Shown here piece after piece: positions 57,861-64,000 of a stretch of DNA of 64,000 nt. The DNA comes from Mesorhizobium sp. 65-26. GTDB taxonomy: Bacteria; Pseudomonadota; Alphaproteobacteria; Rhizobiales; Rhizobiaceae. A program made the translations under genes and the position numbers. Numbering within the stretch: the first letter of the stretch is position 1; the number at the start of each line of letters is the position of its first letter. Location: NCBI GenBank assembly GCA_001899205.1, contig MKVL01000017.1:1-64000 (forward strand), in the 5' to 3' direction. The notes below the pieces were generated by a model. That model had not been told where the DNA came from. It made no database searches and was given only the letters and a program-made list of their open reading frames with translations.

Positions 57861-60800
57861 CTATTCGGCCAGGACGCGGGTGGATGGGAAGGCGACCTCC
57901 ACCAGCGTGCCTTCGCCCGGCGTCGAGGTGATGGTGAAGCGGGCGCGATTCGCTTCCACCATGGCCTTGGTCAGCGGCAGGCCGAGGCCGGTTCCGTCGC
58001 CGCGTCCCCTTTTCAGCGCGTTGATCTGCTTGAACGGCTTCAGCGCCTGCTCGATCTCGGCCTGGCTCATGCCGATGCCGGTATCGCGCACCCGCATTGC
58101 CACGTCACCGGACGATTCGTAGGCGGTGGAGACGATCACCTGGCCACCCGCCTGCGTGTAGCGGATGGCGTTGGATAGGATGTTGAGGGCGATCTGGCGT
58201 ACGCTGCGCAGGTCGGCCACCACGTCCGGAAGGCGCGAGGCGAAGCTGGACCGGATGATGACCCGCTCGCGGTTGGCCTGGGGCTGCATCATGGCCACGG
58301 TTTCGGCGAGCGTGTCGTTGAGCGACACGGCCTCATAGTCCATTTCCTGCTGGCCGGCCTCGATTTTCGAGATATCCAGCAGGTCGTTGACCAGGTCGAG
58401 CACATGGTTGCCCGAGCGGTTGATGTCGCGCAGATAGTCGCGGTAGCGGTCATTGGCCACCGGACCGAACTTCTCGTCGACCATCAGTTCGGAGAAACCG
58501 ATGATCGCGTTGAGCGGCGTGCGGATCTCGTGGCTGATGCGGGCCAGGAATTCGGTCTTCTGCGAGGAGGCGCGCTCGGCCACCGCGCGCGCCTGGGTGA
58601 GATCCTCCTCGGCTCGTTTCCACTGCGTGATGTCGCGCACGACGGCGCAGAAGCCACTGTCGTTGGGCAGCCTGCCGATGGTCATGAACAGCGGGATGAA
58701 ACGCCCCTGCGCCTCGCGGCCGATCACCTCGCGGCCGTCATTGAGCACGCTGGCGACGCCCGGTTCCGACAGGCCGGCAAGATAGTCCTGCGCCGCGCGC
58801 TGGCTCTCGATGGCGAAGAGGGACGCGAAGGATTTGCCGGCCACTTCGTCGCTGTCGAAGCCGAACAAGGCTTCCGCCGGGCGGCTGATGGAACGGATCG
58901 TCCCATCGCGGCCGATCAGCACCACGCCGTCGGTCGCCGTGTCGATGATGGTCCGCATCTCGGCGATGCGGGTCTTGAGTTCCGCTATGTCGGGCTGCGC
59001 GGGGTCGTCCGCCATGACGTGCGGCGCCGTTGCCGTCTCGTCGTCGCCCGAACGCCGCACGACCAGCATCAGCGCCTTGCCGCCAAGCCAGGGGACCGAA
59101 CGCAGGATAGCCTCGATCGGAAACTCCTGGCCGTCCCTTGCCCGCATGTGCAGAGCGTGGTCGGTACCGTCAGAGGCCTCGTCATCGGCGTACGGGTCGG
59201 CAAAGAGCGCGCCGATGCCGCCTGCCTCCGCAAGCTCCGCCAGCGTGTCGTAGCCGGTCAGCGCGAGAAACTCCTCGTTGGCGTAGTGAAGCGCGTCGCC
59301 GGAATGGATGAGCAACGGTACCGGCAGCTTGCTGAGGATGGACGTGTCGGGAGCAGTGGCCTCGGCGGACGAAAAGGCCGACGGCAGGAAGCCGTCGGTC
59401 TTCGGCGCCGGCGCGGGCTGGGATATGTGCGCAGCGGCGAGTATCTCGGCCTTGCCGGTATCCTTGTCGGCGGGCGCGCCGTCGTCGGGCTGCGCCCATT
59501 CCTCGTTGTCCTCCGCGTCGCGGAAGTCATCGGCGGTCATGCTGTCGTCATTGGCCGCGACGGGCTCGTCCTGCCCGGAGGGGGCGGCTGTCTCAGCAGC
59601 CAGCGTGCCGGAACCGGCCACGCCAGGCCTTGCCTCGGGGGTCGGGGAAGCGGCCTGCTCCGGCGGTTTCTCCGTGGAGCCATCCGGCCGTGCTTCGGAC
59701 GAGGCCGGCGGCACGGGCTCTCCGGCCTGGGGCGGTGATGGCTCGGCAGGGTGTGTGGGTGTCTCGTGGGGCGCGGATGCAGCCGTGCGTGCCGGCGCTC
59801 CCTCCGCCGGAAGCTGCTTGTCCGCCGCGCCTGCCTCGGCGGCGCTGGAACTGTCCTTCCGCAACCGCTCGCCGATCTCCCGGAAGGCGCTGCGCTCGAC
59901 GACGGACAATTCCCTGTCGATGGAGCCCTTCGCGCCCTTGTCGTTGCCTGGCTGCCGGTGCTCGGCGAGGCGGATGACCTTGTCGGCAAAGCGCCGCTCC
60001 GGCTTTGGCACGATCGTCAGCGCCGGCACCTCGCCTTTGAAGGGGTCGCTCGGCGGCGGTTCCTCGCTGATCGTGGCCTCAGGTGCGGTTGGGGCAGGGG
60101 GCTGGCCATTGGGCACCAGCGCCATGCCGATGGCTTCGGGGTCGATCATGGCGTCGCCAGTGCGCGCGACACCGAACCCGCGAAAGCCCTTGAATTCCCT
60201 GTTGCGGCCATAGACGGGCAGCGCCGCCAGATCGACCGGGATCTTGAGGTCGGTCCCGGCCACCGGCCACTGCACGGAGCGTCCCGACCAGGTGTCGCGC
60301 CGCTCCAGCAGCCCCGCGATCTCGCCGGACGGGTCAAGGCCGAATGTGGTGGCGACGTCCCGGAACCGCCTGCCGATGACGTCGGCCGCGGCCTTGCCGA
60401 CGATTGCGGTGAATTCGGGCGAGAGCGAGCTGAACCGCCCTTCCTCATCGGTCAGCCAGACGAATCGGATCGGCGCTGCCTGGCGGTCGATTGGCCTCGG
60501 CGCGCTCGCGGCCGGTTGCCGAGGCGGATGATCCGCCGGAGGCGGCGGGGTCACGGTCTGGGCCGCCACGAGCGGGGCGGTTTCTCGCGGCTGGTCGGCG
60601 TCGTCGCCAGCGTTGAAATACCAGTGATCATGCTGCGCGGAACCGTTTGTGGTTCCGTCTCCCTCCGTCGCGGCGGGCGCCTGGACGGTAGGCATGTCGG
60701 CGGTGGTCGTGCGTGCCTCGTCGCCGCTATGGCCCTGCGGTGCTTCGGTAGCCTCCGCCGTGGGCGCTGTCTCGGCGGGAAACTTCAGTGGTTCCGATTC

Positions 60801-61526
60801 GCCTGCGGCGTCCTCGACGATAGTGGGCTTGTCGGCTGTCGTGGCTGCTTCCCTAGCCGGTTCCTCGGCCAGGTCCTCATCGATCACCATGAGCAGGTGG
60901 CGCTGCTCTGTCAGGCGGGCGAGCCCGGCCGGATACGCGGCCTTGCCGCTGACGATGCGCCTGACGATCCGATGAGGATCGGTCGCCACTTCGGCGACGA
61001 GCGCGGCCAGTGTTTCGCGTGTGATGCCAAGGGCCGAGAAGCCGCTCGACGATGCCTCGATTTCACCCCGGGCGTCGACGAAGGCAATATGGTGGCCGTC
61101 CTCGGTGAAGCCGCTGATGGCGCGGCCGGCTATTTCGGCGGCGCTACGCGACCCGGCTTGCGGCGCCGGCAAGGCAAGCATGATCGCGCTTTCGCCGTCG
61201 GGCATGGTCAAGGCGGTCGCCAGGAAGCCGATCGCGCGACTGGTCAGGCCGCTCGCCAGCCTGACGGTAATGGCCCGGTCGCGACCGATGGCTGGAAAGC
61301 CGCTCGTCGCCATGATCTGGCGCCGGGCGATCAGTGGCAGGCGCGCAGACGCCCCGATGATCGCCTCGATGTCTGAGTAGCCGAACAGGGCGGCCCCTGG
61401 CCCGTTCGCCCATATCACCTGCTCGAGGTCCGCCGCCAATATGGCGATCGCGTCGCCGGCGGCAAAGCGCTGCCGCACCGTGTCCAGCACGGCGACATCG
61501 AGGAAGGAATAGGTCTCGGACGGCAT
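57861..61526 (-). CDS. PdhS/PleC-like multi-PAS sensor histidine kinase
   Basis: The 1221-residue protein has no membrane segment. A PAS-like region at the N-terminus (LEQVIWANGPGAALFGYSD) is followed by long Ala/Pro/Glu-rich linkers and further PAS units (FVWLTDEEGRFSSLSPEFTA; VLIGRDGTIRSISRPAEALF). The kinase core has KTEFLARISHEIRTPLNAII with His999, then NILSNAIRYT, DTGIGMS and GTGLGLPLTKA. The phrase FGPVANDRYRDYLRDINRSG after the H-box is typical of PleC/DivJ/PdhS kinases that act on DivK and control cell division asymmetry in rhizobia. A full CtrA site lies 39 bases upstream. An in-frame ATG 81 bases earlier is less likely. Confidence 0.85.
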   Translation of the reverse strand: MPSETYSFLDVAVLDTVRQRFAAGDAIAILAADLEQVIWANGPGAALFGYSDIEAIIGASARLPLIARRQIMATSGFPAIGRDRAITVRLASGLTSRAIGFLATALTMPDGESAIMLALPAPQAGSRSAAEIAGRAISGFTEDGHHIAFVDARGEIEASSSGFSALGITRETLAALVAEVATDPHRIVRRIVSGKAAYPAGLARLTEQRHLLMVIDEDLAEEPAREAATTADKPTIVEDAAGESEPLKFPAETAPTAEATEAPQGHSGDEARTTTADMPTVQAPAATEGDGTTNGSAQHDHWYFNAGDDADQPRETAPLVAAQTVTPPPPADHPPRQPAASAPRPIDRQAAPIRFVWLTDEEGRFSSLSPEFTAIVGKAAADVIGRRFRDVATTFGLDPSGEIAGLLERRDTWSGRSVQWPVAGTDLKIPVDLAALPVYGRNREFKGFRGFGVARTGDAMIDPEAIGMALVPNGQPPAPTAPEATISEEPPPSDPFKGEVPALTIVPKPERRFADKVIRLAEHRQPGNDKGAKGSIDRELSVVERSAFREIGERLRKDSSSAAEAGAADKQLPAEGAPARTAASAPHETPTHPAEPSPPQAGEPVPPASSEARPDGSTEKPPEQAASPTPEARPGVAGSGTLAAETAAPSGQDEPVAANDDSMTADDFRDAEDNEEWAQPDDGAPADKDTGKAEILAAAHISQPAPAPKTDGFLPSAFSSAEATAPDTSILSKLPVPLLIHSGDALHYANEEFLALTGYDTLAELAEAGGIGALFADPYADDEASDGTDHALHMRARDGQEFPIEAILRSVPWLGGKALMLVVRRSGDDETATAPHVMADDPAQPDIAELKTRIAEMRTIIDTATDGVVLIGRDGTIRSISRPAEALFGFDSDEVAGKSFASLFAIESQRAAQDYLAGLSEPGVASVLNDGREVIGREAQGRFIPLFMTIGRLPNDSGFCAVVRDITQWKRAEEDLTQARAVAERASSQKTEFLARISHEIRTPLNAIIGFSELMVDEKFGPVANDRYRDYLRDINRSGNHVLDLVNDLLDISKIEAGQQEMDYEAVSLNDTLAETVAMMQPQANRERVIIRSSFASRLPDVVADLRSVRQIALNILSNAIRYTQAGGQVIVSTAYESSGDVAMRVRDTGIGMSQAEIEQALKPFKQINALKRGRGDGTGLGLPLTKAMVEANRARFTITSTPGEGTLVEVAFPSTRVLAE

Positions 61527-61564
61527 GCGCTTGGCGATCCCCACGGACTTCGGGCAGCTTGCGG

Positions 61565-61579
61565 TTAACGCTTTGTTAA
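61565..61579 (-). promoter_or_regulatory. Full CtrA-binding site upstream of the kinase
   Basis: On the minus strand the sequence is TTAACAAAGCGTTAA followed by C, an exact match to the alphaproteobacterial CtrA consensus TTAA-N7-TTAAC. It lies 39 bases before the start codon of the PdhS-like kinase, where it could activate or repress its promoter. Confidence 0.7.
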
Positions 61580-61667
61580 TAAAAGCGGACGGCGCGAAGG
61601 TCCACAATCCATAGCGTGCGATGGCCGAATTCTGGCCTCTTGGTTAACGGCGGGAGCCTGTATTCAT

Positions 61668-61698
61668 GTTGCATCGCAACAAAGATGTTGCATTGCAC
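61668..61698 (+). promoter_or_regulatory. Twin TTGCAT palindromes upstream of the phasin
   Basis: GTTGCATCGCAAC (61668-61680) is a perfect 5-bp inverted repeat with a 3-base centre. GTTGCATTGCAC (61687-61698) is a near copy. TGC-rich repeats of this kind before phasin genes are bound by the repressor PhaR/AniA in relatives. The position, 80-110 bases before the phasin ATG, fits an operator. Confidence 0.6.
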
Positions 61699-61776
61699 AA
61701 AAAATCCTCTATATCTCTTTCCATACATGCACGAGACGGCTTTTCGCAAAAGCCGCTGCCCCGAAAAGGATGGAAA

Positions 61777-62235
61777 ATGTCCAAGACCAAGACCGCCGAG
61801 ACCATCGAGGGCGTCGAGTTTCCGAGCTTTGACGCTTCCAAGGCTACCGATCAGTTCCGCACCTTCGCCGAAAAGGGTGTCGAGCAGTCGAAAGAGGCCT
61901 ATGCCAAGCTGAAGACCGGCGCCGAAGAGACCCAGAAGGTTCTGGAATCGACCTACGAGACCGCCAAGACGGTTTCCGGCGACCTCTCGCTCAAGACCAT
62001 TGCCGCGCTGCGCGCCAACGCCGAAGCCAGCTTCTCGCATATCGAGGCGCTGATCGGTGCCAAGACCCTTTCGGAAGTCGTCGAGCTGCAGACCTCGTTC
62101 CTCCGCAAGCGCGTCGAGGCCGGTGTCGAGCAGGCCAAGGATTTCCAGGCCGTCGCCTCCAAGGCGGTCGAGGACGTCTCCAAGCCGATCAAGGTTGCCT
62201 TCGAGAAGGCGTTCAAGGACGTCAAGGCTGCCTAA
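61777..62235 (+). CDS. Phasin (polyhydroxybutyrate granule protein)
   Basis: The 152-residue protein is almost wholly helical, with the phasin pattern FPSFDASKATDQFRTFAEKG, then QSKEAYAKLKTGAEETQKVL, ALRANAEASFSHIEALIGAK and LQTSFLRKRVEAGVEQAKDF. Phasins coat polyhydroxybutyrate granules and control their number and size. ATG at 61777 has AAGGATGG upstream. Codon use is strongly biased to C-ending codons, as in highly expressed genes. A small RNA gene with three CCTCC loops begins about 80 bases after the stop. Confidence 0.92.
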   Translation: MSKTKTAETIEGVEFPSFDASKATDQFRTFAEKGVEQSKEAYAKLKTGAEETQKVLESTYETAKTVSGDLSLKTIAALRANAEASFSHIEALIGAKTLSEVVELQTSFLRKRVEAGVEQAKDFQAVASKAVEDVSKPIKVAFEKAFKDVKAA

Positions 62236-62316
62236 TTTTTGCGCATGATATGAAGATGCAACAAAAGGTCGCATTTTCTTCGAGACGATCATGTGTAAGA
62301 TGGCAATCATAGAATA

Positions 62317-62424
62317 CCCGGTGGGTGGAACCTCCTCCCTCTGCTCGCCGGGGTGACCAGCCAGCTCCTCCTCCCGCTGGCTCGTAACAGGAAAAGGCCG
62401 GCACCTCCTCCCGCCGGCCTTTTT
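62317..62424 (+). ncRNA. Candidate alpha-r8/MmgR-type small RNA
   Basis: Three successive hairpins each expose CCTCCTCCC or CTCCTCCTCCC in the loop. Stem 1 is CCCGGTG/CGCCGGG (62317-62353). Stem 2 is AGCCAG/CTGGCT (about 62359-62382). Stem 3 is AAAAGGCCGGC/GCCGGCCTTTT with a T-run (62392-62424), which is the terminator. Repeated anti-Shine-Dalgarno loops ending in a terminator are the hallmark of the alpha-r8 family, whose member MmgR limits polyhydroxybutyrate accumulation in Sinorhizobium. Here the gene directly follows a phasin gene. The 5' end is not defined by the sequence and may lie up to 30 bases earlier or later. Confidence 0.75.
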
Positions 62425-62577
62425 CTTTGCCCGCAGCATGACGCGGATGTGGGCAAAAGTGCTTTGCGTCGCAAAAGCCTTGAATTAAAATTCAATAGCC
62501 CGTATGGACGCATCGCCGAACGACGGAGCGGGTCCCGGAGAATGAGTTTTTCACTTGGAGCCCGCCCAGGCAGACGT

Positions 62578-62654
62578 GCCGTTGTAGCTCAGCTGGTTAG
62601 AGCGCCGGATTGTGGATCCGGAGGTCGCTGGTTCGATCCCAGCCAACGGTACCA
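62578..62654 (+). tRNA. tRNA-His (GTG)
   Basis: It begins GCCGTTGTAGCTCAGCTGGT and ends CAACGGTACCA. The acceptor stem pairs over 7 bases, with a G-T at the end. The anticodon loop is ATTGTGGA, anticodon GTG. The discriminator is A73 and the base before the 5' end is T, so there is no encoded G-1; both are exceptions to the general tRNA-His rule but known in this branch of alphaproteobacteria. Confidence 0.95.
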
Positions 62655-62932
62655 ATTCCCCCTATGATTGGAAGAATGCTCTCCTTGAACCTGGTAATTC
62701 CTTCGGCCTTGTGGGTCCCGTGCGGGATCGGCTTGCTGGGTGGTGGCGACTCGGTTCGAATGGACATGCATCGCTCGCGGGGGCTGGACGTTATGATTAC
62801 CAACCGGGTTGGAGCGCCTGGTGTCCGCGGGACGGACAAGGGACGCGCCAACAACCTAAGTTCACGCATCGTGCCTCGCGACAGTCGGAAGCGATTCTGG
62901 GGCCGGTGCGGTGGCCGTAAGGGAACAGCAGC

Positions 62933-63178
62933 ATGAGTGAACACGCGATCGAGTTCTTGCGGGAATGGATCGGCGAAAAGGTCCACTGCCAGTCTTCGGC
63001 CCATATCGGCAAGCAGGCTGAAACCCTTGCCAAGGAATGCGCGGCCAAGGCGGCCGAGGCCGGCATCGCGCTGGAAGATATCCAGGAAGAGGTCGGCGAC
63101 ATCCAGGAATTGATCGCGTCACGGCTGGAGGAAGCCGCCGAAGCGGAAGAAGGCAAGTCCGACAAGGCGTCTGGCTAG
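62933..63178 (+). CDS. DUF768 family protein
   Basis: The 81-residue protein matches the small DUF768 family known from Mesorhizobium: FLREWIGEKVHC, then SAHIGKQAETLAKECAAKAA and DIQEEVGDIQELIASRLEEA. It is a soluble, acidic, helical protein of unknown function. Its stop TAG is also the first bases of a dispersed repeat (TAGAGCATTTTGC). The 278 bases before it, after the tRNA, contain nothing I can name. Confidence 0.85.
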   Translation: MSEHAIEFLREWIGEKVHCQSSAHIGKQAETLAKECAAKAAEAGIALEDIQEEVGDIQELIASRLEEAAEAEEGKSDKASG

Positions 63179-63357: not shown

Positions 63358-64000
63358 TCAAAGTTTTCCGAATTGAGCCGCTAGCCAGCTTTTCGGCAGC
63401 GCCGGCACGAAGTTGCCGTCGCGGCCGGTCATGTCTTCATTGGCGATCATGGCGTTGAGGATGGCTTCCTCGACGCCCTGCACGACGGCGTCGAAGAATG
63501 GGTCGATGTCGGTGTCGGGGATGAAATCGGCGCTGGCGAGTCGGCCGGAAGGCGCCTTCGCCGCTCCCGGATTGGCGGTCGAGAAGGCAAGGAAGATGTC
63601 GCCGGAACTGTGGTAGGCGAAGCCGCCCGTCATCGCGATGCCCAGCGGTATCCGGCGCGCCAGGCGCTTCATCTGATGCGGCAGGAGCGGTGCGTCGGTG
63701 GCGACGACCGCGATGATCGATCCCTTCTCCGCGCGCGGCGTGCCTTCGCGGATCGCCGGCTCGGCAAGTTCCTTGCCGACGCGGCGCCCACGTATGGTGA
63801 AGTTGTGCCGCTTGCCGAAATTGGCCTGCACGAAGACGCCGAGCACGTGGTCGCGACCCTGCCACGCCACGATGCGCGAGGCGGTGCCTGATCCGGCCTT
63901 GAAGCCGAAAGTGATCATACCCGTACCGCCGCCGACGCTGCCTTCCTCGATGGCGCCGCTGGTGGCATTGTCGAGCGCGGCCGAGACATGTTCGAAGGTC
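63358..64000 (-). CDS. DmpA-type P1 family aminopeptidase, partial
   Basis: The frame runs off the end of the window, so the N-terminus is missing. The visible part has EEGSVGGGTGMITFGFKAGSG, where the Gly-Ser bond is the autoprocessing site and the Ser becomes the N-terminal nucleophile of the beta chain. After this come IVAWQGRDHVLGVFVQANFG, IIAVVATDAPLLPHQMKRLA and MTGGFAYHSSGDIFLAFSTAN. This family includes DmpA of Ochrobactrum, an L-aminopeptidase/D-amidase. A Met just after the cleavage site is not the real start. Confidence 0.88.
   Translation of the reverse strand, partial: TFEHVSAALDNATSGAIEEGSVGGGTGMITFGFKAGSGTASRIVAWQGRDHVLGVFVQANFGKRHNFTIRGRRVGKELAEPAIREGTPRAEKGSIIAVVATDAPLLPHQMKRLARRIPLGIAMTGGFAYHSSGDIFLAFSTANPGAAKAPSGRLASADFIPDTDIDPFFDAVVQGVEEAILNAMIANEDMTGRDGNFVPALPKSWLAAQFGKL

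Follow-up and report, generated by a model that had tools for sequence, protein, structure and literature searches.

A phasin-linked small RNA of the alpha-r14 family with three anti-Shine-Dalgarno loops in Mesorhizobium

The window, that is the whole stretch of 64,000 nucleotides of Mesorhizobium sp. 65-26 analysed here, carries towards its right-hand end a phasin gene which is followed on the same strand by a predicted three-hairpin RNA and a tRNA-His gene, the latter being the usual downstream neighbour of this phasin-RNA locus. The features of the locus are the following:

61670-61678 and 61689-61697, plus strand: two candidate PhaR/AniA-type sites in the phasin promoter region, TGCATCGCA and TGCATTGCA, respectively, both matching YGCRNYGCR
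61777-62235, plus strand: phasin gene, 152 aa (TIGR01985, 141.8 bits, cut-off 99.7; PF09361, 56.8 bits)
62257-62276, plus strand: intergenic element of the form TGC-N11-GCA, a candidate operator, promoter element or structured 3' UTR element
62313-62426, plus strand: small RNA of the alpha-r14 family, phasin-linked copy (RF02344, 71.2 bits; fold z -6.3)
62317-62352, plus strand: hairpin 1, anti-Shine-Dalgarno (aSD) motif at 62331-62339
62353-62388, plus strand: hairpin 2, aSD motif at 62367-62375
62389-62426, plus strand: hairpin 3, aSD motif at 62404-62412; predicted terminator of the Rho-independent type, with no clear terminator between it and the phasin gene
62578-62654, plus strand: tRNA-His (GTG)

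Divergently from the phasin gene, a multi-PAS histidine kinase of 1248 aa is encoded at 57861-61607 on the minus strand, the C-terminal part of which is PdhS-like (NF041593, 1138 bits, below the cut-off of 2000). On the other side, the tRNA is followed by a gene for an 81-aa DUF768-like protein (62933-63178, plus strand; 27.2 bits, just below the Pfam cut-off of 27.8) and by a Peptidase S58 family gene (63358-63999, minus strand) that continues past the window end. A PADLOC scan of the phasin gave no match.

According to folding predictions, the region from 62317 to 62426 on the plus strand consists of three adjoining hairpins, each presenting CCUCCUCCC in a 10-nt loop. The minimum free energy of this region is -60 kcal/mol compared to -39.3 kcal/mol (sd 3.3) for 200 shuffles, none of which was equally stable (z = -6.3). 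In addition, CCTCCTCCC occurs four times in the 64-kb window, as compared to 0.66 expected occurrences and with one of 100 shuffles also reaching this count, and three of the four occurrences lie within 82 bases at the three-hairpin region. Hairpin 3 is terminator-like, with a T5 run from 62420 that is both included in and preceded by the hairpin, and termination at this site is predicted. A terminator scan from the phasin stop to hairpin 3 found none; the scan covered loops of 3-8 nt and thus also missed hairpin 3 with its loop of 10 nt. The initial annotation, which had described three consecutive hairpins with CCUCCUCCC loops and a terminator at the end, some 80 bases behind the phasin gene and on the same strand, is borne out in these respects: the phasin stop ends at 62235, and the family match discussed below starts at 62313, 77 nt further on. 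The start of the feature, placed at 62235, coincides with the final base of the phasin stop, and the RNA itself extends from about 62313 to 62426 (about 114 nt), with an estimated 5' end that might lie a few bases earlier.

When hairpin arms were swapped between genera, using the window and seven other genera with three motifs, the hairpins formed from their own arms were more stable on average. For hairpin 1 the own arms gave -16.8 kcal/mol versus -10.3 kcal/mol for the swapped ones, with 9% of the 56 swaps reaching the own mean, and the corresponding values were -14.0 versus -10.8 kcal/mol (21% of 56) for hairpin 2 and -18.8 versus -15.5 kcal/mol (32% of 56) for hairpin 3. The latter is the weakest case, and covariation is little informative there because the stem hardly varies.

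With respect to family membership, an Rfam cmscan revealed a match to RF02344 (ar14) at 62313-62425 on the plus strand (71.2 bits, cut-off 58.8, E = 7.7e-11) that covers the model over its full length (positions 1-123 of 123) and is the sole sRNA match in the window at the curated Rfam cut-offs. At permissive settings, the next-best sRNA model between 61600 and 62700 was CcsR1 with 28.6 bits (cut-off 65.3). The features that define an alpha-r14 RNA, i.e., a model score above the gathering cut-off, three hairpins with unpaired CCUCCUCCC, and a terminator-like third hairpin, were all found, and judged by its sequence and predicted fold the window RNA belongs to the alpha-r14 (NfeR1/cuckoo) family.

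The initial annotation had instead proposed an alpha-r8/MmgR RNA restraining polyhydroxybutyrate (PHB) storage, and had considered three loops to be more than usual. However, three hairpins with an aSD motif in each and with variable stems are the norm for alpha-r14 RNAs (PMC10746234, in part), and this make-up is what the window RNA has in common with NfeR1 of Sinorhizobium meliloti. What speaks for alpha-r8/MmgR is that the RNA adjoins a phasin gene and that MmgR, which in S. meliloti has been connected with PHB and the level of phasin (PMC7143759 and PMC12542648, each in part), likewise folds into three stem-loops, the first of which carries an aSD motif in its loop (PMC7143759, in part). 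Yet MmgR is shorter, with 77 nt and the motif described in its first loop (PMC7143759, in part) as opposed to about 114 nt and a motif in all three loops here, and it differs from the window RNA by locus and, using suhB (RF00519) as a stand-in for the alpha-r8/MmgR model, by family. The suhB family, which MmgR partly resembles (PMC7143759, in part), gave no match with E of 5 or lower in a permissive scan of 61600-62700 and has three matches in the genome, all at other loci and two over cut-off. As it is the ar14 model that matches here and the suhB stand-in only elsewhere in the genome, an alpha-r8/MmgR identity was discarded and is considered to be highly improbable.

Within the alpha-r14 family, the window RNA differs from NfeR1 in lying directly behind a phasin gene and in having no exact NfeR1-type promoter. 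Neither CTTAGAC-N17-CTATAT (spacers of 15-19 nt allowed, no mismatches) nor the LsrB box TGCA-N6-GCAT (no mismatches allowed) had an exact match in 62181-62330, and since both are unmatched the window RNA appears to be an alpha-r14 RNA but not NfeR1 itself. The likely NfeR1 counterpart is another of the four ar14 matches in the genome, three of which are over cut-off: the copy on contig C25 is flanked by LacI- and TetR-type genes, and a CTATAT box resembling that of the NfeR1 promoter precedes it at a short distance. A further copy, on contig C31, begins immediately behind the stop codon of a DUF1127 gene, which corresponds to the arrangement of CIN1; on this contig (L166, 57-500), two DUF1127 genes in a row precede the ar14 copy near the contig end. 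The match on contig C10 (32.9 bits) has no aSD motif. In several relatives ar14 matches are found in close tandem, e.g., three in G042:C3, and in one relative there are four in direct tandem (G125:C45:28034-28528).

The DUF1127-CcsR and CIN1 loci, which encode cuckoo RNAs, resemble the window in that an aSD-loop RNA lies behind a small protein gene, and for ccaF1-CcsR1-4 of Rhodobacter sphaeroides co-transcription and processing by RNase E have been reported (PMC10253847, in part). However, the gene directly upstream of the window RNA codes for a phasin and not for a DUF1127 protein as in the DUF1127-cuckoo (CIN1) arrangement, and the CcsR1 model reaches only 28.6 of the required 65.3 bits. 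RNAs with three and four CCUCCUCCC hairpins, SmelA075 and SmelA099, had been described in S. meliloti already in 2011 (PMC3927594, in part).

The initial annotation had suggested a check of synteny, and the physical tie between phasin and RNA that it saw holds well beyond the window. Comparing the best 80 of 167 loci encoding close relatives of the phasin, 78 of which are titled Mesorhizobium, three CCTCCTCCC motifs were found after the phasin stop in 79 of these best 80, the first motif being located 88-102 nt past the stop; in the 80th locus the contig ends 59 nt past the stop. Across the 80 aligned rows (best 80 of 167), the motifs of the three loops show virtually no variation, whereas their flanks drift. 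In L128 and L174, the aSD loops of the phasin-linked hairpins have decayed to shorter forms, and the last, terminator-like hairpin stays.

In Mesorhizobium, the spacer between phasin gene and RNA harbours a second conserved feature, the TGC-N11-GCA element. The mean information of 62255-62276 is 1.85 bits, compared to about 0.9 bits on either flank and 1.88 bits for the RNA (62332-62425), 79 of the 80 aligned rows (best 80 of 167 loci) retain TGC-N11-GCA, and the element, which is still present in the locus truncated by the contig end, occurs just once in the genome when up to 3 mismatches are allowed. This 20-bp element may be a separate promoter or operator. In a rival reading, the RNA is in Mesorhizobium an independent sRNA gene with its own promoter in the 77-nt spacer and with TGC-N11-GCA as its control site, the phasin gene being only a neighbour. 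An element that is unique in the genome and conserved about as well as the RNA itself, between poorly conserved flanks, argues for such a gene, as does the fact that NfeR1 itself has its own sigma-70 promoter. Moreover, TGC-N11-GCA is the form of a putative NtrC site located between -116 and -101 in the nfeR1 promoter (PMC10746234, in part); with the element lying here near -50 to -35 of the assumed start, this parallel is only suggestive. However, a sigma-70-type scan of the region gave no match, the -10-like box near 62296-62301 is weak and was read by eye, and an exact NfeR1 core promoter and LsrB box are lacking in the interval given above. The element is also missing in six of the nine loci that could be parsed from ten hand-picked and mostly small genomes of the same genus, the three loci having it belonging to larger genomes, and none of the 16 linked genera described below has it ahead of the first motif. 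Because of this distribution the spacer element looks like a later addition, and an independent gene seems possible but rather doubtful. The spacer could also fold as RNA: 40 of the 80 rows were compared to 30 mononucleotide shuffles of the same row, and every one of the 40 had a predicted energy below the mean of its shuffles, in some cases barely so. Covariation gives no support, as no more than 4 pairs, none of them variable, appear in the consensus of the 80 rows.

Beyond the genus, one genome each from 60 other genera of the family was surveyed, 48 of which had a phasin match, and the 46 best copies were examined. CCTCCTC hairpins resembling ar14 follow immediately after the phasin gene in 16 of the 46 other genera and are absent there in 30. 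Amongst the linked genera, three intact motifs are found in seven, two in four and one in five, and the distance from the phasin stop to the first intact motif is 26-47 nt in 15 of the 16; in the remaining one, G123, it is 72 nt, and an earlier hairpin with a degenerate loop comes before the motif. When the 16 linked loci and a decayed case, G131, were scanned with Rfam, the ar14 model was found in 16 of these 17 loci, in 10 of them over cut-off, and a tRNA was located nearby in 16 of the 17. In turn, tRNA-His lies downstream in 27 of the 30 loci classed as unlinked, a group that includes G131, and since the unlinked loci are thus mostly situated in the same neighbourhood, it is the RNA that makes the difference. 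In a phasin tree of 47 rows, of which 4 of 44 inner branches are well supported, the distribution of linked rows requires 4 changes compared to 14 in shuffles, none of 500 shuffles being as low. This fits, but does not prove, a single old origin of the phasin link with subsequent decay. Taken as comparative evidence, these data show the link between phasin gene and RNA to be a genuine and conserved one that extends beyond the genus.

In 15 of the linked genera, the first motif is so near to the phasin stop that a promoter would hardly find space without overlapping the coding sequence, and in the linked other genera the RNA would most simply be the 3' UTR of the phasin gene together with its terminator. 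Terminator-like hairpins are present in 15 of the 16 linked and 12 of the 30 unlinked rows (G121 weak; one of the latter being G131). In the unlinked G112, G144, and G156, a plain hairpin after the phasin gene has the stem core AAGGCCGG in common with hairpin 3 of the window; this terminator stem may be generic. The hairpins might serve solely as terminator and 3' stabiliser of the phasin transcript, with the aSD loops being leftovers of a duplicated ar14 copy that are idle in trans. The terminator-like hairpins in almost all linked genera and the hairpin of G119, which is terminator-like without any aSD loop, are in line with such a role, and so is the decay to two or one intact CCTCCTC motifs in 9 of the 16 linked genera, as would be expected if often only the terminator function was kept. 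However, the three motifs are retained in seven of the 16 linked genera, and in Mesorhizobium the loops stay essentially invariant while their flanks drift, so that idle loops appear improbable.

Regarding the control of the phasin gene itself, YGCRNYGCR is the core of the PhaR motif of S. meliloti (PMC12542648, in part), and a gene for PhaR is present in the genome (148.2 bits). With 4 cores in a 3.1-kb stretch versus 3.5 expected, the two candidate sites are at chance level by the core alone; of 51 cores in the window, three have at least 8 of 12 AT in their flanks, two of which are the sites at 61670 and 61689, and the region of these sites upstream of the phasin gene is conserved in 78 aligned rows. 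In the spacer that separates the RNA from the phasin gene, YGCRNYGCR does not occur; a further core of this type, TGCGTCGCA, lies at 62465-62473 between the sRNA and tRNA-His. An autoregulation of the phasin by the aSD loops was also considered but is not supported: in a test restricted to the window, the loops paired with the phasin start region with -11.3 kcal/mol, a value equalled or surpassed by 56 of 97 long window ORFs (many of them spurious), which makes this start region no favoured target.

On balance, and with slightly better than even confidence, we consider the window RNA to be an alpha-r14 aSD sRNA forming an integral part of the phasin transcription unit at its 3' end, in the way known from DUF1127-CcsR operons. 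This is because of the full RF02344 match, the linkage in 79 of 80 close-relative loci (best 80 of 167) and in 16 of 46 other genera, the clustering of the linked phasins in the tree, the terminator-like hairpins in 15 of 16 linked rows, the tRNA-His in 27 of 30 unlinked loci, and the DUF1127-ar14 pair on contig C31 having the same build. Against it, the conserved Mesorhizobium spacer element could mean an independent gene, 30 of the 46 genera are without the module, the second phasin of the genome (contig C42) is not followed by any CCTCCT over the next 500 nt, two or one intact motifs are left in 9 of the 16 linked genera, and the part played by PhaR is opposed by sites at chance level when judged by their core. 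If the RNA is built into the phasin unit, PhaR/AniA would probably repress transcription of the phasin gene until PHB granules take PhaR away; transcription would then run on to hairpin 3 as the phasin terminator, and RNase processing of the transcript would set free a stable RNA of about 115 nt, the three CCUCCUCCC loops of which may act in trans on other mRNAs by blocking their ribosome binding sites. Synthesis of the granule coat would thereby be tied to the down-regulation of other genes, which in the case of NfeR1 are transport genes and ntrBC; function in trans and targets are extrapolated here from NfeR1. In Mesorhizobium proper, the added spacer with its 20-bp element may provide a second, independent promoter or control point. 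Either of the two routes named in the initial annotation, a promoter of the RNA's own or processing of the phasin message, may thus apply.

More tentatively, and as a proposal that is rather unlikely to hold in all its parts, the phasin mRNA might be a dual-output transcript: upon removal of PhaR by PHB granules it would yield both the coat protein and a 3'-end aSD sRNA lowering the expression of uptake and nitrogen genes, the aSD loops having entered the phasin terminator region and a control element of their own having been gained later in Mesorhizobium.

Both the alpha-r14 family and operons combining a DUF1127 protein with an aSD RNA are already known. Phasin as the partner, in the genus of the window and in 16 other genera, and the occurrence of the same locus elsewhere without the RNA are apparently new as far as the literature looked at is concerned: no report of the phasin-RNA link was found among the titles and starts of abstracts returned by literature searches, a scope that does not extend to PMC4615179 (cuckoo RNAs, 2015), the most relevant paper, or to PMC3346310 (survey of alpha-r RNAs, 2012), and the word "phasin" is absent from the main text of PMC5596092 and PMC10746234 and from the outline and passages of PMC3927594. 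The sRNA table of Mesorhizobium huakuii (PMC5596092, in part) does not name ar14, and its entry MH_s15 may be a candidate for the window RNA.

If the RNA is indeed part of the phasin unit, carbon storage and post-transcriptional control would be joined in one transcription unit, and rhizobia would have a direct route from the state of PHB to the repression of transport and nitrogen genes; under the dual-output proposal, this would amount to a riboregulator sensing carbon storage. Phasin would then be the second protein partner, besides DUF1127, for anti-SD RNAs at 3' ends, and a protein gene ending in an aSD sRNA would represent a wider pattern in this group of bacteria, testable by ordinary RNA methods.
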